From positions 248,001 to 312,000 of the forward strand of contig NZ_JACHVB010000035.1 of NCBI RefSeq assembly GCF_014230085.1: a stretch of 64,000 nucleotides of DNA. Direction: 5' to 3'. Of this stretch, positions 33,784 to 50,157 are shown in pieces. A program made the translations under genes and the position numbers. Each line of letters opens with the position of its first letter. Position 1 is the stretch's first letter. Below the pieces are notes generated by a model. It saw nothing but the letters and a program-made list of their open reading frames with translations, did no database searches and had not been told where the DNA came from. This stretch comes from Ruficoccus amylovorans. Its GTDB lineage: Bacteria; Verrucomicrobiota; Verrucomicrobiia; Opitutales; Cerasicoccaceae.

Positions 33784-34259
33784 GGTCACGAAGGACACGA
33801 GGAAGACACGAAGAGCACAAAGATGAAGGTGGACGCTTCAATAACTTCTGACGTCGAGGCATTGGCGAATCGGGTTATTGGAGCGGCTATCGAAGTGCAC
33901 AAAAGTGTTGGCCCTGGCTTACTGGAAAGTGCTTACGAAAAATGCCTTTCCCACGAACTGACGCTTCGAGGCATTTCCCATCAGTGTCAGCTTTCTGTTT
34001 CCATTTCCTACAAAGACTGCCTGATCGAAAATGCTTACCGCATCGACTTGTTAGTCGAGGGTGCGCTCGTCGTCGAGCTCAAGGCCGTTGATGAACTTCT
34101 CCCTGTCCACACCGCCCAAGTCTTGACCTATTTAAAATTTCAGCAGGCCCGGCTCGGTCTGTTGATTAATTTCAGAGCCAGAACTCTAAAAGAAGGACTG
34201 AAGAGGATCGTTCTGTAGCGCTTTGTGCTCTTTGTGTCTCCTTGGTGCCCTTCGTGACC
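33784..34259. mobile_element. CACGAAG inverted-repeat element, copy D, enclosing a GxxExxY gene
   Basis: Arms 33784-33822 and 34221-34259 are both 39 bp, match inversely at 34 of 39 positions and consist of four CACGAAG-like heptamers spaced 2, 4 and 2 bp. The loop (33823-34220) is filled by the GxxExxY gene: its ATG is the first loop codon and its stop ends 2 bp before the second arm. Copies B, C and E carry the same arms with no gene. I infer a repeat element that carries a nuclease-like gene; direct target duplications are not evident. Confidence 0.65.
33823..34218 (+). CDS. GxxExxY protein (PD-(D/E)XK-like superfamily)
   Basis: The 131-residue protein has the family-defining 'VGPGLLESAYEKCLSHEL' (G..E..Y, about residues 29-46). 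It also has a PD-(D/E)XK-like core: 'YRIDLLVEGALVVELKAVDE' gives Asp, then Glu-x-Lys, then 'HTAQVLTYLKFQQARLGLLI' with the Gln/Tyr helix. Family members are small single-domain nuclease-fold proteins of unproven function, scattered as multiple copies in Verrucomicrobiota and relatives. Its base composition is lower in GC than the flanking kdgK and SDR genes, and it fits exactly between two 39-bp inverted arms, which suggests it arrived as a unit and interrupts the uronate genes. Confidence 0.85.
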   Translation: MKVDASITSDVEALANRVIGAAIEVHKSVGPGLLESAYEKCLSHELTLRGISHQCQLSVSISYKDCLIENAYRIDLLVEGALVVELKAVDELLPVHTAQVLTYLKFQQARLGLLINFRARTLKEGLKRIVL

Positions 34260-34268
34260 CATTAAAAA

Positions 34269-35057: not shown

Positions 35058-35207
35058 GGTCACGAAGGGCACGAAGGAGACACGAAGACCACGAAGTTGG
35101 TCACTTTATTTTTACCCACAAATCAAACACGTGTAAGTTCTTCATGTATTTAAAGATCGATACATATGCTTTGTGATCTTCGTGTCTCCTTCGTGCCCTT
35201 CGTGTCC
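35058..35207. repeat. CACGAAG inverted repeat, copy E, with operator in its loop
   Basis: Arms 35058-35096 and 35169-35207 match inversely at 36 of 39 positions, the best-preserved copy. The AT-rich 72-bp loop holds an ACACGTGT site (35127-35134), so the uxaC promoter and operator probably lie between the arms. Confidence 0.88.
35126..35135. promoter_or_regulatory. Candidate LacI-family operator upstream of uxaC
   Basis: AACACGTGTA contains the ACACGTGT core 111 bp before the uxaC start and shares the flanking AAGTTC with the site at 28364 (GTGTAAGTTC in both). That makes recognition by one regulator more convincing than the 8-bp core alone. Confidence 0.72.
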
Positions 35208-35245
35208 CATTTTTATTTCATCCATCACCTAACCCGCCCACGCCC

Positions 35246-39571: not shown

Positions 39572-40378
39572 ACTCTTATTACAAGTATTAGTGAGTTACT
39601 GATATAGCGTCTATATTGATACCAGGATTTGTTTTCTGAAATCGATTCTCACTATTTCCAACTCCGTGCTGTGATTTCACTTTTTATTAGTTACCAGCAG
39701 CTTACGAGAGGGGGAGGCGGACGTCAGATGCGTGGAAGTGCATATAAATGCTTGTTTTGGGGCAAATAATTGGCAAATCGTGTATTCTTTGCCTGAGGAG
39801 CAACGCCAGTTTTTAGTCTGAAGGTTCTTATTGTTCCTAACCAGAAGGGAATTGCAAGATATGCGTCCGGAACGTCCGGCGGAAATCTTTCGGGGCGGAT
39901 GTCCCATTGTGGTGTTCGTTTTCGAAGCCATGTGTGGCTGAGTGAGCAGTTTAATAGATGAACTTCTACCGAAACACCGGGTTTGCGTGTCCCTATCTTG
40001 GGTGAAGACCCAGTTCCGACACAAACGACAAGGCAACGGCTTGTTCCTCATTCACTAACGAAATCCGATGGCTGGCGGGGCTTTCTCTCAGTGCCCGTTT
40101 GGGCCGATTGAGCGTGGTTTCTATTCGCCTTCGGCGTACCTGTTGAACGGGACTAAACTCCTCGGCGTGGGGGTTGGGATCACTTTTTTACCGTCCATAT
40201 TTCCGAGTGGTTCCGTGTGGGACCCGTGTACCTCGTTTAGTGAATTCTCTCGCCGAGGTAGGGGGCTTGAGAAAATGCTCATCCTGACCCCGGCGGCGAG
40301 ATCAGGCTTTCAATTAAGTTTCGCATTTGTTCTTGAATGACCAATCTTAATATTATTATGTGATTGCAAGTCGGTTGC
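39572..40378. other. Long intergenic region upstream of cas3
   Basis: About 800 bp of lower-GC sequence separate the sulfatase from cas3. I find no convincing gene: open stretches at 39677-40051 (minus) and 40068-40340 (plus) have no domain, signal or membrane pattern. The cas3 promoter should lie near 40330-40370 (AT-rich, TATTATTATG). The boundary of the CRISPR island, or decayed genes, may be here. No repeat-like sequence of the CRISPR type is seen. Confidence 0.5.
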
Positions 40379-42724
40379 ATGTCCTCTCTATCTCATTCGC
40401 CCTATGCTCATACCCGGACAGGTCCGGATGGTCGCCTGATGTCGTCTGATGAGTGGGAGCCGTTGCTGACGTTTCAATGCCTGTCAGGCTTGGATCGAGG
40501 TTGCCCCTTTTGTTGTAAACTCGATCCGCAACACGGGCACTTGAACAAAGTTGCTCATCTCGCCGGGCTCAATGCCGAGACTCTCTTCCGGAAAGGAAGT
40601 CAGGAGGCCCAATGCGCCCGTGATTGGGGAGAACTCGCTGGCTGGTGGCATGACCTGGGAAAGTTTGCGCCCGAGTGGCAGGCATATTTGCGCCGGAAGG
40701 CTGAAGGGGAATCCGGATCAGTGGATCACTCAACGGCGGGCGCGCAGCAGGCTGTGCGGGCGCAGAGCCTGCTGGGTCATCTGCTGGCATACGGGATTGC
40801 CGGGCACCACGCAGGCTTGCCCGACGCGGAGGGCACACCAGCTTGCTTGCGGGAGCGTCTGCATCGTGGGCTTTCTTTTCGGGAGTCGGATATACCTCTT
40901 GAGCTATTGCGGATGCCGGTGCCGTTATTGCCACCGTTTCTACTCAATGCTCTGCGAGAGAGGGAGGATGCGTTCAGTGCAGGCTTTTATGCACGAATGC
41001 TATTTTCCTGTCTGGTCGATGCGGATTTCCTGGCCACGGAATCGTTTATGTCCCCCGGCCTTCATGAGCAGCGTAACGCTGTTCAGGCGGGTGTCCTAAA
41101 CAAGATTGAGCAGCTTGTCACGGCCAGGATCGCGGGGTTCCCGTCTCCGGTACCCGGCGACGTTGTCAACGCTATGCGCGCTGAAGTGGTGGCAGACTGT
41201 GCGCGCGCGGCGGTGGGACCGACGGGTATTTATACGCTCACGGTCCCGACCGGCGGAGGCAAGACTCTCTCTTCGCTGTTGTTTGCGCTACGTCACGCGC
41301 TTGCCAATGGCCAACTGCGTGTGATCTACGTCGTCCCCTTCACCTCGATCATCGAACAGAATGCCGAGGTGCTGCGCGAGATTGTTCGCCCGCTGGCGAG
41401 CGATACCTTCACTCCCCTGATCGAGCACCACAGCTCGCTTGACCCGGACAAGGACACGCCTATGGCCCGTCTGGCTGCGGAAAACTGGGATGCTCCTTTG
41501 GTTATCACCACGGCGGTGCAATTTTACGAGTCACTCTTTGCGGCCCGTACGTCGCGTGCGCGAAAGGTGCACAACATCGCCAATGCAGTCGTCGTGCTGG
41601 ATGAAGCGCAGACGCTGCCAGTGGATTACCTGCACCCGTGCCTGCGGGTGTTGCAGGAGCTGGGCGATCACTACAATACGACCAGCGTTTTGTGCACGGC
41701 GACGCAGCCTGCTATCCGCTATGACGCGGCGGCATTCCCGATCGGACTGAGGGGGTGCAGGGAGATTATCTCCGATACATGTAAGCTGTTTGCGGCGCTC
41801 AAGCGGGTGGAGATTCAAGAGCTTGGAGAGTTGGACGATGCCGAACTGACCCAACGCCTTTGTTCACACAGGCAGGTACTGTGTATTGTCAATCGCCGTC
41901 GGCACGCGCAGGAGCTATTCCGGCTCTTGGAGGCGGACGAGGCGCACTTTCACCTCTCGGCCTTGATGTGCCCCGAACATCGCACGCAGATTCTCAAACG
42001 CGTGCGTGCCCGGTTGGAGCGTGGTTTGCCAGTGCGCTTGATCTCTACCCAGTTGATTGAGGCGGGGGTGGACGTAGACTTTCCCGTTGTTTACCGTGCT
42101 TTGGCCGGGCTGGACTCTATTGCCCAGGCGGCGGGTCGCTGCAACCGTAATGGTAAACTCGATACACTGGGAAAGGTCTTTGTCTTTCGTCCCCAGGATC
42201 AGGCAGCGGAACGGTATTTTCGGGAAACGGCCCAGGTCACCAGCCAATTGCTTGGTCTGCACGAAGACCTGCTCGGAGAGGATGCCATCCGCCACTATTT
42301 CGATCTTTATTACTATCAGCAGAAAAACCGTTGGGATTCTCGCAATATTCTCGCCCCGGAAAATCTCCGGCTGTGCCGCGACAAGCCCGAGCTGCCCTTT
42401 CACTTTAACTTCCGCACGATTGGGGAAAACTTCCGGCTGATCGACGACGGGCAGGTGTCCGTCATCATCGAACACGGCGAAAAGGCTGAGGCGCTCGTCG
42501 CCGAGCTGCGCAACGAGCACATCCCGCTCAGCCGTCGTCTCCTGCGCGCGCTTCAACGCTACACAGTGCAGATCCGACCCGCCGAGCTGAACGCGAACTG
42601 GCACTGTTTCGAGCATCTGCGTGATGATGAGTTTCACGTGCTGATTTCTCCCGAACTCCATTATTCCTGTGAGACCGGCCTGTGCCTGGATGAAACGGCG
42701 AGCGAGAGACTATTGATATATTAA
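40379..42724 (+). CDS. cas3: CRISPR-associated helicase-nuclease Cas3 (type I-C)
   Basis: The ATG at 40379 gives 781 residues starting with the type I-C pattern 'YAHTRTGPDGRL...EWEPL'. The N-terminal HD nuclease has 'AGWWHDLGKFAPEW' (near residue 85) and 'GHHAG' (near 143). The SF2 helicase follows with 'VPTGGGKTLSS' (Walker A, near 288), 'VVLDEAQTLP' (DEAQ), 'LCTATQPA' and 'IAQAAGRCNRNG'. It unwinds and shreds DNA bound by Cascade. Odd point: about 23 residues with four Cys ('FQCLSGLDRGCPFCCKL') separate 'EWEPL' from 'HLNKVAHLAG', where other Cas3 proteins are contiguous. A minus-strand terminator ends 2 bp after its stop. Confidence 0.96.
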   Translation: MSSLSHSPYAHTRTGPDGRLMSSDEWEPLLTFQCLSGLDRGCPFCCKLDPQHGHLNKVAHLAGLNAETLFRKGSQEAQCARDWGELAGWWHDLGKFAPEWQAYLRRKAEGESGSVDHSTAGAQQAVRAQSLLGHLLAYGIAGHHAGLPDAEGTPACLRERLHRGLSFRESDIPLELLRMPVPLLPPFLLNALREREDAFSAGFYARMLFSCLVDADFLATESFMSPGLHEQRNAVQAGVLNKIEQLVTARIAGFPSPVPGDVVNAMRAEVVADCARAAVGPTGIYTLTVPTGGGKTLSSLLFALRHALANGQLRVIYVVPFTSIIEQNAEVLREIVRPLASDTFTPLIEHHSSLDPDKDTPMARLAAENWDAPLVITTAVQFYESLFAARTSRARKVHNIANAVVVLDEAQTLPVDYLHPCLRVLQELGDHYNTTSVLCTATQPAIRYDAAAFPIGLRGCREIISDTCKLFAALKRVEIQELGELDDAELTQRLCSHRQVLCIVNRRRHAQELFRLLEADEAHFHLSALMCPEHRTQILKRVRARLERGLPVRLISTQLIEAGVDVDFPVVYRALAGLDSIAQAAGRCNRNGKLDTLGKVFVFRPQDQAAERYFRETAQVTSQLLGLHEDLLGEDAIRHYFDLYYYQQKNRWDSRNILAPENLRLCRDKPELPFHFNFRTIGENFRLIDDGQVSVIIEHGEKAEALVAELRNEHIPLSRRLLRALQRYTVQIRPAELNANWHCFEHLRDDEFHVLISPELHYSCETGLCLDETASERLLIY

Positions 42725-42726
42725 AA

Positions 42727-42812
42727 GCTCCCCTCGGGCTTTGCCCGAGGGGAGCATGGATACTAGCATTTCCTATAACAGGTTTCAATCCGCGCACGAT
42801 TATTCGCGCGAC
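42727..42812 (-). ncRNA. CreA-like crRNA-mimic: degenerate repeat, pseudo-spacer and terminator
   Basis: On the minus strand, 42812-42782 reads as a degenerate CRISPR repeat. It keeps the 5' GTC, a rebuilt hairpin (CGCGCGA, loop ATAA, TCGTGCG, with one G-T pair) and the exact 12-nt 3' end GCGGATTGAAAC of the array repeat. A 26-nt pseudo-spacer follows (42781-42756, beginning CTGTTATAGGAAATGCTAG). A perfect 13-bp terminator hairpin (42755-42727) then runs into TTTTAA at the cas3 stop codon. The conserved handle and stem mean Cas5c could process it and Cascade could carry it. The first 19 nt of the pseudo-spacer match two TTC-flanked sites upstream on the same strand. This is the architecture of CreA/CreR RNAs; function is inferred. 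Confidence 0.82.
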
Positions 42813-42988
42813 AATAAAACACCAGCAATGAGCGATCCGAATAAAAGCATTGAGGCGATAAATATGATTTGTTCATTTTCTACCCAAAATCCGGCCCCGA
42901 TCAATGAAAAGGACATCATAAGCGCTAATGCGCAAAAGCGTACTTTCGGGGGAAGTAACTTTAGAATCTCTTTTTTAGGGTCGTCCAT
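42800..42988 (-). CDS. Small two-helix membrane peptide, possible CreT-type toxin
   Basis: This 62-residue frame between cas3 and cas5c runs opposite to both. It starts 'DDPKKEILKLLPPKVRF', then has a membrane helix (about residues 19-35, 'ALALMMSFSLIGAGFWV') and a second (about 41-58, 'IIFIASMLLFGSLIAGVLL'), ending 'SRE'. No Shine-Dalgarno sequence is seen; a TATTAT box 12-17 bp upstream of the ATG suggests a nearly leaderless mRNA. Its stop codon lies inside the degenerate repeat of the CreA-like RNA, and both Cascade target sites are upstream of it. Small hydrophobic peptides are common toxins, so a CreT role is plausible; no homologue is recognised, and the true toxic product could instead be the RNA. 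Confidence 0.65.
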   Translation of the reverse strand: MDDPKKEILKLLPPKVRFCALALMMSFSLIGAGFWVENEQIIFIASMLLFGSLIAGVLLSRE

Positions 42989-42992
42989 TTTT

Positions 42993-43014
42993 CAAGCATA
43001 TAATAGAACAGGAA
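42993..43014 (-). promoter_or_regulatory. Predicted Cascade target site 2 (PAM TTC), over the small-gene promoter
   Basis: On the minus strand TTC (43014-43012) precedes CTGTTCTATTATATGCTTG. This agrees with the pseudo-spacer at 14 of 19 positions, and three of the five mismatches are at positions 6, 12 and 18, the bases that Cascade flips out and does not read. It covers the TATTAT box (43005-43000) just before the small gene's ATG. Confidence 0.65.
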
Positions 43015-43051: not shown

Positions 43052-43073
43052 CAAGCATTTACTATAACAGGAA
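43052..43073 (-). promoter_or_regulatory. Predicted Cascade target site 1 (PAM TTC) between the small gene and cas5c
   Basis: On the minus strand TTC (43073-43071) precedes CTGTTATAGTAAATGCTTG. This equals the pseudo-spacer at 17 of 19 positions (mismatches at 10 and 18), with a perfect 9-nt seed. It contains TATAGT, a possible -10 box, and ends 28 bp before the cas5c ATG, so binding could also block plus-strand transcription into cas5c. Confidence 0.75.
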
Positions 43074-43088
43074 TATTTAAAAGATTGA

Positions 43089-45595
<2,507 letters not shown>

Positions 45596-45606
45596 TTATT
45601 AAAACT

Positions 45607-46461
45607 ATGGATAAACGATACGACTTCATCTACCTCTTCGACTGCCAGGACGCTAACCCCAACGGCGACCCCGATGCCGGGAACCTGCCCCGTATTGATG
45701 TGGAGACCGGCCAGGGCCTCGTCACCGACGTTTGCCTCAAGCGCAAGATCCGCAACTTCGTTGCTCAGGCGACGCCGGAGCGGATTTACTTCGTCGAGGG
45801 TGCCGTCCACAACAACCAGCACAAGGATGCTCATGCCGCTGTCGGCATTGATACTAAAGACGCCAAGGCTCCCAAGGGGGGGAAGAAAGACGAGGCGCGC
45901 GAGTGGATGTGCCGCAACTACTACGATGTACGCACCTTTGGGGCGGTCATGTCCACCGAGGTTAACTGTGGGCAGGTGCGTGGCCCGGTGCAGCTTTCGT
46001 TCGCTCGTTCACTCGACCCGATTGTGACGAGCGAACACGCCATCACTCGCACCTCGGTGACGAACGAAAAGGACATCGAAAAGGAGCGTACGATCGGCCG
46101 CAAATTCACCGTCCCCTACGGCCTGTACCGTTGTCATGGGTTTATAAATCCGTTTCTGGCCGCGCAGACGGGATTTGGTGAGGAGGACCGCGAACTGTTG
46201 TTCCAAGCCTTGGAGAACGCCTTCCAGTTTGACCAGTCGGCGGCCCGCCCGGCAGGCAGCATGAATCCGCGCGGTCTGCTGGTTTTTGAACATGACAACC
46301 AACTTGGCAAGGCTCCCTCGCACCGACTCTTTGACGCGGTGCAGGTCCAGCGCAAAGACGGCGTCGAGGTCGCCCGCAGTTGTCGGGATTACGAGGCGCG
46401 GATCGACGAGGCAGCGATCCCCACGGGCATTACCTTGCACCGTCGTATCTGGAGTTGGTAG
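45607..46461 (+). CDS. cas7c: CRISPR-associated protein Cas7c (Csd2), Cascade backbone
   Basis: The 284-residue protein has the Csd2 opening 'RYDFIYLFDCQDANPNGDPD' followed by 'PRIDVETGQGLVTDVCLKRK', then 'VRTFGAVMSTEVNCGQVRGP' and 'ITRTSVTNEKDIEKERTIGR', the conserved thumb and palm regions of type I-C Cas7. Multiple copies coat the crRNA spacer and flip every sixth base. Length and motifs are as expected for the family. It lies 11 bp after cas8c and 15 bp before cas4 in one operon. Confidence 0.96.
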   Translation: MDKRYDFIYLFDCQDANPNGDPDAGNLPRIDVETGQGLVTDVCLKRKIRNFVAQATPERIYFVEGAVHNNQHKDAHAAVGIDTKDAKAPKGGKKDEAREWMCRNYYDVRTFGAVMSTEVNCGQVRGPVQLSFARSLDPIVTSEHAITRTSVTNEKDIEKERTIGRKFTVPYGLYRCHGFINPFLAAQTGFGEEDRELLFQALENAFQFDQSAARPAGSMNPRGLLVFEHDNQLGKAPSHRLFDAVQVQRKDGVEVARSCRDYEARIDEAAIPTGITLHRRIWSW

Positions 46462-46476
46462 CAGGAGAAGCACCTC

Positions 46477-47118
46477 ATGCGGATGGCTTCGCAGTCTGTG
46501 CCCCTTTCGGCCTTGCAGCACTACCTGTACTGCCCGCGGCAGTGCGCGTTGATCCATGTCGAACGCGAGTGGAGCGAGAACACCGGCACAGCCGAGGGAA
46601 AGGTCATGCATGAGAAGGCACACTCCGGGCAGGGTGAGTCCCGGCCCGGAGTACGCATCGTGCGCGGGCTGGAGGTGCGCTCCGTCCGCTATGAGCTTCA
46701 TGGCGTCTGCGATGTTGTGGAAATCCATCAGGCAGGGACGATTATCCCGGTGGAGTATAAGCGTGGGCGTCCCAAAGGACACCGCGCCGATGAGATCCAG
46801 CTCTGCGGTCAGGCTATCTGCCTGGAAGAAACCTTTGGCCGGGGAGAAGGCTTCATCGACGAAGGTCACCTCTACTATGGAAAACTCAAGCGGCGCACCG
46901 TCGTGCCCCTGGGGGCTGAGCTTCGGGCTCTGACGCTGGAGACGGCTGAAAAGACGCGGAGTATGATTGCATCCGGCCTTACTCCACCCGGGGAGTATTC
47001 GTCTCGACTCTGTGACCGCTGTTCGCTGATCGAACTTTGTCAGCCACGCTCCCTGCGGCTCAGGCAAGGGGTGGACCGATGGTTCCTGAGAAGTCTGGAC
47101 AAATCATTGATGGAATGA
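46477..47118 (+). CDS. cas4: CRISPR-associated exonuclease Cas4
   Basis: The 213-residue protein has the Cas4 layout: 'SALQHYLYCPRQCALIHVER' (first Fe-S Cys pair region), RecB-like nuclease residues in 'GKVMHEKAH' (His), 'IIPVEYKRGRPKGH' (Glu-x-Lys) and 'EIQLCGQAICLEE' (Gln), and the C-terminal 'LCDRCSLIELCQP' cysteines that bind the iron-sulfur cluster. It trims prespacers and helps Cas1-Cas2 choose PAM-flanked DNA. It overlaps cas1 by 4 bp. Confidence 0.95.
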   Translation: MRMASQSVPLSALQHYLYCPRQCALIHVEREWSENTGTAEGKVMHEKAHSGQGESRPGVRIVRGLEVRSVRYELHGVCDVVEIHQAGTIIPVEYKRGRPKGHRADEIQLCGQAICLEETFGRGEGFIDEGHLYYGKLKRRTVVPLGAELRALTLETAEKTRSMIASGLTPPGEYSSRLCDRCSLIELCQPRSLRLRQGVDRWFLRSLDKSLME

Positions 47119-48149
47119 AAACGCATTTGAACACGCTGTTTGTCACCCAGGAGGGAACCTATCTGCACCGGGACGGTGCTGCTGTCGAGGTGCGCCAGGA
47201 GGGCAAGCCCCGTCTGCGGGTGCCTCTTCACAACTTGGATGGGATCTGCTGCTTTGCCTGGGATTGTACGGCTAGTGCCGCCTTGCTGGCAGCTTGCGCG
47301 GAGGCCGATGTGACCGTCTCCTTTCACACACCCAGTGGTAAGTTCCAGGCCGCGACGCGCGGGTTTACCTCTGGTAATATCCTCCTGCGCCGGGCTCAGT
47401 ATCGCGCCAGCGAGGATGAATCGCTCTCACTGGCGATCGCTCGCAACATGGTGGCGGCCAAAATTGCCAACGCCCGGCAGGTCATCTTGCGAGTTGTGCG
47501 CGATCACGGTTCGCGAGATGAGGAGAAAGCCGCACGTTTGTCTGCCGCTGCCGAACAGCTTACCCACCGTGTGCGTTTTGCGCAGGCCGCAGATAATCTC
47601 GACAGCCTGCGCGGAGTCGAGGGTGACGCGGCGACTTTTTATTTTGGAGCGTTTTCGGATCTGCTAACCAACAACGAGTTCGTGCTGGATGCCCGTCAGC
47701 GCCGCCCCCCGATCGATCCGGTTAACGCGCTCTTGTCCTTCTGCTACACGCTGCTGATGCATGACTGTCGTAGTGCGTTGGAGGGATGCGGACTAGATCC
47801 GCAATGCGGGTTCCTTCACCGTGATCGTCCTGGCCGTCAGAGCTTGGCTCTTGATCTGATGGAGGAGTTAAGGGCACCTATTGCTGACCGGGTTGCCCTC
47901 ACACTGCTCAATCGCCGCCAACTCGGTCACAAAGATTTTGAGACACGGGAGAACGGTGGGGTTTACCTCAAACCCGATGGGCGCAAGACTGTCTTTGCCG
48001 CCTGGCAAGAGCGTAAGCAGACTGAGATCCTGCATCCTCTGCTCGACGAGCGCATCAGTTACGGGCTCTTGCCGCATATACAGGCTCGCCTGCTGGCCCG
48101 ACATCTGCGGGGTGATCTCGACGGCTATCCCGCTTTTCTCACTCGTTGA
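47115..48149 (+). CDS. cas1: CRISPR-associated integrase Cas1 (type I-C)
   Basis: The ATG at 47115 (ATGA overlap with cas4) gives 344 residues beginning 'LNTLFVTQEGTYLHRDGAAV', the type I-C Cas1 opening; an earlier in-frame start lies inside cas4 and is unlikely. The metal-binding residues are the Glu in 'LRGVEGDAATFYFG' (near residue 166), the His in 'CGFLHRDRPGRQSLALDLME' (near residue 234) and the acidic residues after it. It integrates new spacers at the leader end with Cas2. Confidence 0.96.
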   Translation: MKTHLNTLFVTQEGTYLHRDGAAVEVRQEGKPRLRVPLHNLDGICCFAWDCTASAALLAACAEADVTVSFHTPSGKFQAATRGFTSGNILLRRAQYRASEDESLSLAIARNMVAAKIANARQVILRVVRDHGSRDEEKAARLSAAAEQLTHRVRFAQAADNLDSLRGVEGDAATFYFGAFSDLLTNNEFVLDARQRRPPIDPVNALLSFCYTLLMHDCRSALEGCGLDPQCGFLHRDRPGRQSLALDLMEELRAPIADRVALTLLNRRQLGHKDFETRENGGVYLKPDGRKTVFAAWQERKQTEILHPLLDERISYGLLPHIQARLLARHLRGDLDGYPAFLTR

Positions 48150-48160
48150 TCGACTGCCTT

Positions 48161-48454
48161 ATGTATCTTCTCGTAGCCTACGATGTTTCCACCTCGACAC
48201 CCGCTGGTCAGCGTCGCTTGCGCAGAGTGGCGAAAGTCTGCCAGGATTACGGTCAACGCGTGCAGAATTCGGTTTTCGAATGTAAAGTCGAGCCAGCGCA
48301 CTATGTTGCATTCAAGCAAAGTCTCCTTACTATCATAAATTCCCAAACAGACTCGTTGAGGTTCTATCACTTGGGAAGAAACTGGAAGCATCGTGTCGAG
48401 CAGTACGGTAAAAATACTGGCTACGACATCGAAGGGCTTCTTTTGGTCGAGTGA
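48161..48454 (+). CDS. cas2: CRISPR-associated protein Cas2
   Basis: The ATG at 48161 gives 97 residues: 'MYLLVAYDVSTSTPAGQRRL' contains the metal-binding Asp of Cas2 (position 8), and 'VAKVCQDYGQRVQNSVFECK' is the family's second signature. The C-terminal strand 'GYDIEGLLLVE' is typical. It forms the dimeric core of the Cas1-Cas2 integrase. It is the last cas gene, 197 bp before the first repeat. Confidence 0.96.
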   Translation: MYLLVAYDVSTSTPAGQRRLRRVAKVCQDYGQRVQNSVFECKVEPAHYVAFKQSLLTIINSQTDSLRFYHLGRNWKHRVEQYGKNTGYDIEGLLLVE

Positions 48455-48651: not shown

Positions 48652-50157
48652 GTCACCCCCCGCGAGGGGGGTGCGGATTGAAACCGTGCGCTTTGTCTGA
48701 TGGTGTATGGGCTGCATACGTCACCCCCCGCGAGGGGGGTGCGGATTGAAACCAGCACCTCCGAGTTACACTTGCGCGTCGCCAAGTCACCCCCCGCGAG
48801 GGGGGTGCGGATTGAAACAGCCGGCTCCAGCGCTGGTTACTCGGGGCGATGCGTCACCCCCCGCGAGGGGGGTGCGGATTGAAACGATCACCATCGTCAT
48901 GCCCTCCTCAGTTCAGCCGAGTCACCCCCCGCGAGGGGGGTGCGGATTGAAACCACACGCACGGCTCGCAAGCTCAGGGCCGCCGTGTCACCCCCCGCGA
49001 GGGGGGTGCGGATTGAAACTCGCTGATCGTGAGCTTCATGCTGTGATCGTTGGCGTCACCCCCCGCGAGGGGGGTGCGGATTGAAACTCGCGCTGGGGGC
49101 CTCGGCTGAACTCACCGAGGGGTCACCCCCCGCGAGGGGGGTGCGGATTGAAACTCGTCCCTGGGCACGTGCCGCGGCTGCCGCCCGGTCACCCCCCGCG
49201 AGGGGGGTGCGGATTGAAACGACAGGGTGTGTGTACGATTTGCCGCATAAAATGTCACCCCCCGCGAGGGGGGTGCGGATTGAAACTGCTTGACGAAAAG
49301 CCGACCGACCTGACCCCCTGTCACCCCCCGCGAGGGGGGTGCGGATTGAAACGCACCAGCAACAAGCAGCACGACGAGATCACCGAGTCACCCCCCGCGA
49401 GGGGGGTGCGGATTGAAACCGGCGGCGCTGGAAGCGATCGAGGAGGCGAGGGCGTCACCCCCCGCGAGGGGGGTGCGGATTGAAACAAACGAGCGCGTCA
49501 CCGAGCGCCCGTCATCCAGCAGTCACCCCCCGCGAGGGGGGTGCGGATTGAAACCGCAGGACATTGGCTACCCCGGTCGCATCACTCGGTCACCCCCCGC
49601 GAGGGGGGTGCGGATTGAAACGTTTTCGTAATCCCACATACGGATGGAAAAACCATGTCACCCCCCGCGAGGGGGGTGCGGATTGAAACATCAAAAGCTC
49701 GATGCCAACGCCCGTGATCTGGCGTCACCCCCCCGCGAGGGGGGTGCGGATTGAAACTTCTGCGAGTTCATCAGGCGGCCGCTCCACACCGGTCACCCCC
49801 CGCGAGGGGGGTGCGGATTGAAACGGGACCAGCCTGTGCCGCCGGTGCGAGGCGGCGCGTCACCCCCCGCGAGGGGGGTGCGGATTGAAACGTTATTCCA
49901 ATATTTTCTACCAAGATGGAAAGGGTCACCCCCCGCGAGGGGGGTGCGGATTGAAACTCGCGCTCATCGCCCGCTTTGCCGTGGCGCACCTGTCACCCCC
50001 CGCGAGGGGGGTGCGGATTGAAACACCAGCGCCTCATGCGGGACGTGTGGCCAGCGCTGTCACCCCCCGCGAGGGGGGTGCGGATTGAAACAAGGTTCCC
50101 GCCTCGTGGCGCATCGTCCGCGCAGTCACCCCCCGCGAGGGGGGTGCGGATTGAGCG
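48652..50157 (+). CRISPR. Type I-C CRISPR array, 23 repeats and 22 spacers
   Basis: The repeat is 33 bp: GTCA, six C, GCGA, six G, then TGCGGATTGAAAC. It folds into an 8-bp stem (CACCCCCC with GGGGGGTG) with a GCGA loop, leaving the usual GGATTGAAAC handle. Repeats start at 48652, 48720, 48786, 48853, 48921, 48987, 49055, 49122, 49188, 49254, 49320, 49387, 49454, 49522, 49589, 49657, 49724, 49792, 49859, 49925, 49992, 50059 and 50125. Spacers are 33-35 bp and all different by eye. Repeat 17 (49724-49757) has seven C and is 34 bp. The last repeat has lost its 3' end (TTGAGCG instead of TTGAAAC), marking the old end of the array. The leader is at the left, so the youngest spacers are near 48685. 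Confidence 0.99.

Follow-up and report, generated by a model that had tools for sequence, protein, structure and literature searches.

The type I-C CRISPR–Cas locus of Ruficoccus amylovorans (Verrucomicrobiota) raises a simple question: which gene is controlled by a spacer-like sequence whose near-perfect target lies just upstream of cas5c? The locus sits in a 64,000-nucleotide stretch of contig NZ_JACHVB010000035.1 (assembly GCF_014230085.1, positions 248,001 to 312,000), called the window here, and all coordinates are those of the window. A preliminary description took the site for a regulatory target, at which Cascade could silence a minus-strand promoter, plus-strand entry into cas5c–cas2, or both. 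The reading favored here is that the gap between cas3 and cas5c holds a Cascade-repressed toxin module of the type I-C system, similar to CreTA and CrePA. This is judged likely, with autoregulation of cas5c a possible, secondary function. The anatomy of the module, its guide–target matches, its conservation and its mismatch pattern can be read directly from the DNA.

A putative guide, two putative targets and a small gene

Along the minus strand, the module opens with target 1 and target 2; the small gene comes next, and then a degenerate repeat, a pseudo-spacer and a terminator. The putative guide gene, creA, starts with a degenerate repeat (42782..42812, minus strand) that is recognized by its sequence and hairpin and whose final 12 nt are those of the array repeat. 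In Rfam it matches CRISPR-DR9 far under the gathering score (21.3 bits, E 0.48) and nothing else. A pseudo-spacer of about 26 nt (42756..42781, minus) follows and reaches the stem of an intrinsic terminator (42727..42755, minus), which has a 13-bp stem and then TTTT. The terminator is listed on the minus strand only; by number it is no more than chance would give (1, against a shuffle mean of 0.6), and it is retained as a feature for its position and its 13-bp stem. A single sigma-70-like match inside the repeat and pseudo-spacer was set aside as being at chance level (1 found, shuffles mean 1.2).

Putative Cascade target 1 (43052..43073, minus) consists of a TTC protospacer-adjacent motif (PAM) at 43073-43071 and a 19-nt target, CTGTTATAGTAAATGCTTG, at 43070-43052. 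TTC is the PAM of type I-C systems. The first 19 nt of the pseudo-spacer, CTGTTATAGGAAATGCTAG at 42781-42763 on the minus strand, agree with the target at 17 of 19 positions; 10 and 18 are mismatched, and past position 19 the two sequences diverge, just as the preliminary description had it. The spacing from the PAM to the cas5c ATG, given there as 28 bp, measures 27 bp. The match is confirmed. When up to three mismatches are allowed, the 19-mer finds only itself and target 1 in the window (100 shuffles, mean 0.00), and a 22-mer that includes the PAM finds only creA itself and target 1 in the 4.5-Mb assembly. Of 20,000 shuffles of the pseudo-spacer, not one scored as high as target 1 at any of the region's 18 TTC sites. 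The 3' end of the target lies 63 nt upstream of the start of the small gene, and TGTTATAGT within it resembles an extended -10 element, by eye only.

A second putative target and the small gene were both absent from the preliminary description. Target 2 (42993..43014, minus) has a TTC PAM at 43014-43012 followed by CTGTTCTATTATATGCTTG at 43011-42993, and it ends 4 nt before the ATG of the small gene. It is identical to the pseudo-spacer at 14/19 positions, with mismatches at 6, 9, 10, 12 and 18, or at 14/16 when positions 6, 12 and 18 are left out. Ranked among the 1930 TTC sites of the window, target 1 comes first (score 15) and target 2 second (14); the next site scores 12. A score of at least 13/16 at target 2 was reached by 4 of 20,000 shuffled spacers.

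The small, creT-like gene (42800..42988, minus) encodes 62 amino acids, sits between the targets and the pseudo-spacer, and is a candidate toxin gene on the combined evidence of its open reading frame (ORF), one homologue, hydropathy and structure prediction. The gene runs into the degenerate repeat with its final 13 nt, so that its TAA stop codon falls in the hairpin loop of the repeat. The protein is hydrophobic by hydropathy, and AlphaFold2, given a two-row alignment, predicts a helical hairpin with helices at residues 14-36 and 39-61 (mean predicted local distance difference test score, 83.7). It has no family match in Pfam, NCBIfam or PADLOC, and neither Pfam nor NCBIfam finds a KilA-N domain in it. 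The product is probably a toxin, as suggested by the predicted two-helix membrane form and by the PIN-domain cargo of four sister loci described below. The gap as a whole has a GC content of 40%, compared with 58% in cas3 and 61% in cas5c.

Conservation and the mismatch pattern

A genome of the same genus, G003, carries the same arrangement in the same gap: TTC followed by CTATGAATTCTTTTATAGA, a 63-residue ORF, the repeat GTCGCGAAAATCTCGCGCGGATTGAAAC, the pseudo-spacer CTATGTATCCTGTTATACAGG, and a GC hairpin with a T-run. The hairpin is not in the terminator scan list and was read from sequence and fold. The two proteins share 36% identity across 58 residues (BLASTP E 2e-11 in a single comparison), the G003 protein is likewise hydrophobic, and at the three codon positions 31, 35 and 22 of 59 nucleotides are identical. 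Guide and target in G003 are each unlike those of the window, yet they pair over positions 1-18 save 6, 9, 12 and 18; guide and target are thus seen to co-vary between the two genomes as judged from their alignment. The distance from target to cas5c is not kept, at about 30 bp in the window versus 91 bp in G003.

At a convincing E-value, the creT-like gene occurs in two of the 372 genomes of the order, the window's and G003, and both carry the module, a point in favor of the reading. The other same-genus genomes in the set, G001 and G002, have neither Cas5c nor creT. Another 46 genomes of the order match a creT profile weakly, at E 0.001-0.1; these matches were taken as noise, as many lie in frames of more than 100 residues or contain internal stops. 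A search of genome contigs with the single protein found no homologue, one with the two-row alignment gave one match that is probably G003's own record, and none was found in the viral contigs scanned.

Cas5c matches occur in 26 of 372 genomes of the order, 50 of 384 of the class and 70 of 387 of the phylum, the three sets overlapping. At 117 loci from 117 genomes, the scan took in as much as 1.5 kb on the upstream side of cas5c. The full 1.5 kb was present at 113 of them; the contig of L035, for example, begins 1425 bases before cas5c. The scan excludes L029 (G174), whose match is cut off by the end of its contig, L068 (G552), with 537 bases, and another fragment match, of 61 residues, also in G552. 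Repeat ends were sought as G.ATTGAAA or as GATTGAAA plus one base. Each locus was counted once, and where overlapping pattern matches gave two shuffle fractions, the larger is quoted.

An ectopic GGATTGAAAC occurs in 14 of the 117 loci, and at 11 of these 14 a nearby target stands above shuffles (0 to 0.023 of 300 shuffles equal or exceed the observed score). Because only two forms of the repeat end were sought, 11 is a lower bound. The window, G003 and the nine further loci have distinct pseudo-spacers, each fitting its own target. Two loci that lack GGATTGAAAC and fall near the cut-off, L112 (0.043) and L036 (0.053), were taken as chance.

The 11 pairs share a pattern of mismatches. Over guide positions 1-13, positions 6 and 12 make up 22 cells, 15 of them mismatched, against 4 of the other 121 (Fisher p 7e-12), which places 15 of the 19 mismatches on these two positions. 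Permutation of mismatches within loci never reached the observed value (0/100,000), and the same was found when G437, or both the window and G437, were left out. The count is 13/17 without G437 and 13/15 without the window and G003, where the pattern was first noticed. The score used to pick targets ignores positions 6, 12 and 18, which is a bias; 10 of the 11 targets are also the top match by plain identity with any PAM, and that of G437 is not, yet was kept. The PAMs of these 10 are TTC in six cases, GTC in two and GTT in two. In pairing, Cascade flips out every sixth base. On the evidence of the aligned sequences, the mismatch pattern is a signature of pairing within Cascade. The two GTT cases, L006 (G017) and L022 (G323), have creA-like guides whose mismatches include positions 6 and 12, and they are perhaps systems with another PAM.

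Cargo and competing readings

At four loci (L005, L015, L020 and L035, in G029, G063, G223 and G583), a FitA-like ribbon-helix-helix gene, a target with a TTC PAM, a PIN-domain gene and creA lie in this order, antisense to the cas genes. Pfam recognizes the PIN domain and the FitA-like ribbon-helix-helix domain at all four. Between the end of the target and the cargo start there are about 39-42 nt in G003, G063, G583 and, counted to its first ATG, G223; in G029 there are about 10 nt. The distance to cas5c, by contrast, runs from about 30 bp in the window and 91 bp in G003 to more than 300 bp at the four PIN loci. Across these six loci, the target therefore goes with the cargo gene and not with cas5c. 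It is possible that Cascade forms a road-block inside a type II toxin–antitoxin operon at the FitA–PIN loci; because the target lies between the two genes, Cascade would spare the antitoxin but block expression of the toxin.

A different kind of cargo may be present in G437, where the stretch from target to creA (L040:2250-2356, plus strand) has no convincing ORF and folds into an 18-bp closed stem with GGGTTCGATTCCC. This stem-closed RNA is a candidate RNA toxin, as far as its sequence and fold suggest. By eye, GGGTTCGATTCCC resembles the T-arm of tRNA or transfer-messenger RNA (tmRNA); the Rfam tmRNA T-arm match scores only 8.6 bits, and ARAGORN found no tRNA in the stretch. At L047 (G579), between about -410 and -822 relative to cas5c, the cas-sense strand carries AbrB-like and PIN-like ORFs (by eye), and an ectopic repeat accompanies them. 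The G579 pseudo-spacer fits a TTC site there only with three single-base gaps and was not counted.

Taken together, the balance of probability leans modestly toward an exchangeable, Cascade-gated toxin cassette carried by the type I-C systems of the Verrucomicrobiota. The pairing of guide and promoter target would be kept as a design while the cargo varies: a two-helix membrane protein in one form, a PIN toxin accompanied by its own FitA-like antitoxin in another, and in a third, perhaps, an RNA resembling tRNA.

A number of observations weigh against a toxin module in the window and its relatives. Five of the 11 target-bearing loci have no evident protein cargo, and L047, L081 and L090, three of the 14 ectopic-repeat loci, have no target above background. 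Only two homologues of the creT-like protein are known. Shuffling the gap 2000 times gives an ATG-initiated ORF of at least 62 residues in 226 cases, and length alone was dropped as evidence for coding; the coding status is argued instead from the homologue in G003. No counterpart of target 2 is seen in G003, where the next-best TC-flanked site matches at 9/15. The window's best pair has one of its two mismatches on the every-sixth rule and, because they fall at 10 and 18, adds nothing to the test of positions 6 and 12. A scan for consensus promoters found none at target 1 or target 2 on either strand, so it favors neither direction of transcription, and no creA promoter was identified, though transcription of creA has to continue under repression of creT. 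In the window, creA has one repeat and then a terminator stem in place of two flanking repeats, whereas most creA genes have two repeats in the account available from PMC8501985. For characterized CreT, the available part of PMC10097628 indicates that a small ORF can be conserved though the RNA is the toxin. Finally, both the toxicity and the expression of the creT-like gene are inferred.

The best-surviving alternative is that target 1 overlaps divergent promoters of creT and cas5c, so that a single Cascade–CreA would tune the cas genes and silence the toxin at once. By eye, the site does read TATAGT on the minus strand and, as its complement, ACTATA with a following AC on the plus strand, and there are two targets, of which target 2 alone could serve creT. 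The lack of a consensus promoter on the plus strand and the location of the sole G003 target, 91 bp from cas5c, make such dual control a possible but unlikely arrangement.

Lower in probability is autoregulation of the CreR type, in which creA steers Cascade to target 1 to repress cas5c–cas2 and the minus-strand ORF is incidental or a passenger. CreR RNAs that repress cas promoters are known in type I systems, according to the portion of PMC12737573 at hand, and are generally not coupled to a toxin gene. They resemble the window module in having the guide near the cas genes, and target 1 is just 27 bp off the cas5c ATG. Other members of the phylum also place targets in a way that suits such control. 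The creA-like guides of G782 (L093) and G362 (L023) have their targets upstream of cas5c, on the strand that is sense for the cas genes and next to a GTC PAM, G017 has creA, target and a 49-residue ORF all on the cas-sense strand, and the G437 target is about 13 bp from cas5c. The placement in G782, G362 and G437 indicates that autoregulation may exist in the phylum, and cas autoregulation may operate at G782, G362 and G017. In the window, by contrast, the target has a homologous gene on its downstream side, as it does in G003, target 2 abuts the start codon of that gene, and the distance to cas5c differs in G003 (91 bp) and in the four PIN loci (>300 bp). The consensus scan also gives no plus-strand promoter, though it gives none on the minus strand at the targets either.

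These results divide the earlier regulatory proposal. A guide-like sequence with a nearby target and pairing limited to about 19 nt holds up, helped by the mismatch pattern of 11 loci. Autoregulation of cas5c–cas2 is not specifically supported, because the distance from target to cas5c is not kept in G003 and the four PIN loci. Between the promoter options, silencing on the minus strand is the better one, because a small gene with a homologue lies downstream and target 2 abuts its start codon; entry into cas5c from the plus strand is not preferred.

Somewhat less probable again is that the window's CreT acts as an RNA and not as a protein, as in classical CreTA (type VIII). The CreT of PMC8501985 and PMC10097628 are RNAs, as far as the accessible text of both goes, and the G437 stretch around GGGTTCGATTCCC, with its closed stem and no convincing ORF, fits the idea. 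The protein-level conservation with G003 (from two homologues only), the third codon positions as the least conserved and the hydrophobicity of both proteins argue for a protein. Very improbable is a mobile-origin anti-CRISPR (Acr) pair with the small protein as Acr and the ectopic repeat as Racr, which would suit the AT-rich gap and the AcrIC5–RacrIC1 layout, where a lone I-C-type repeat comes after a small protein (as given in the part of PMC10651486 available), since the window repeat leads into a spacer-like guide that fits PAM-flanked targets, with co-variation in G003 and the every-sixth pattern across loci, whereas a Racr needs no target, and since the viral contigs scanned hold no homologue and the position inside the cas operon is common to two species.

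The type I-C host and related systems

The host CRISPR system is type I-C with a complete cas set, all on the plus strand. The cas3 gene (HD and helicase) is at 40364..42724, cas5c (TIGR01876, Cas5c) at 43101..43826, cas8c at 43823-45595, cas7c at 45607-46461, and cas4, cas1 and cas2 at 46477..48454. The CRISPR array (48652..50157, plus) has 23 copies of a 33-nt repeat, of which 22 also match CRISPR-DR9 under its gathering score. The final copy, at 50125-50157 (GGATTGAGCG), has no AAAC end, which makes the end of the array degenerate. Elsewhere in the window, a 44-nt pair at 34220-34263 and 35168-35211 is 91% identical, 948 bp apart.

In type I-C systems, Cas5 processes the crRNA (CRISPR RNA), as the excerpted text of PMC10651486 describes. 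For the toxin module favored here, we infer transcription of creA and creT, processing by Cas5c, repression and toxicity. Cas5c would process the degenerate repeat, giving a CreA with a GCGGATTGAAAC handle ending in GGATTGAAAC, which would load Cascade (Cas5c–Cas8c–Cas7c). Cascade–CreA would then bind the two TTC targets upstream of creT with pairing of at most 19 bp, covering the creT promoter region and start and blocking transcription without the normal degradation by Cas3. If Cascade were lost or inhibited, through a cas mutation or an anti-CRISPR, creT would be released and the cell would arrest or die.

Hok and TisB are examples of the hydrophobic peptides of type I toxin–antitoxin systems. 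The window module resembles these systems in having a short hydrophobic membrane protein as its candidate toxin under control of an RNA, but differs in that the RNA would act on DNA via Cascade and not as an antisense to mRNA, and the protein has no sequence family match. It shares more with CreTA of haloarchaeal I-B and Acinetobacter I-F systems, where, in the parts of PMC8501985 and PMC10097628 available, a toxin gene and creA lie beside the cas genes and creA is a degenerate repeat plus a spacer-like part that is partly complementary, with a PAM, to the toxin promoter region. A creA with one repeat and a terminator at its end is likewise described for Haloarcula hispanica in that portion of PMC8501985. 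Unlike the earlier creTA modules, which surround cas6 in the available text of PMC10097628, the window module abuts cas5c of a type I-C system, its cargo looks like a membrane protein and not an RNA, and it has two tandem targets, and one repeat where two are commoner. In CrePA, a protein toxin is repressed by Cascade–CreA, and this toxin typically comes with KilA-N (both from the part of PMC12737573 available); the 62-residue protein of the window has no KilA-N and belongs to a type I-C host. Among the matches listed in a search of the open-licence literature, there was no CreTA in type I-C, no membrane-protein CreT and no Cascade target in a FitA/VapB–PIN operon. The window module would work in the manner of CreTA and CrePA, with a protein-like cargo and no KilA-N.

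CRISPR-gated toxins explain the persistence of costly CRISPR systems and the punishment of anti-CRISPR carriers; those described in the literature cited here depend on small RNAs or on a KilA-N protein. The mismatch signature at every sixth base, seen over loci, offers an easy means of detecting modules of this kind in spite of their lack of sequence conservation. If the reading is true, a membrane-protein version in type I-C together with the FitA–PIN loci would mean that the guide is a general gate that can be fitted with unrelated toxins.
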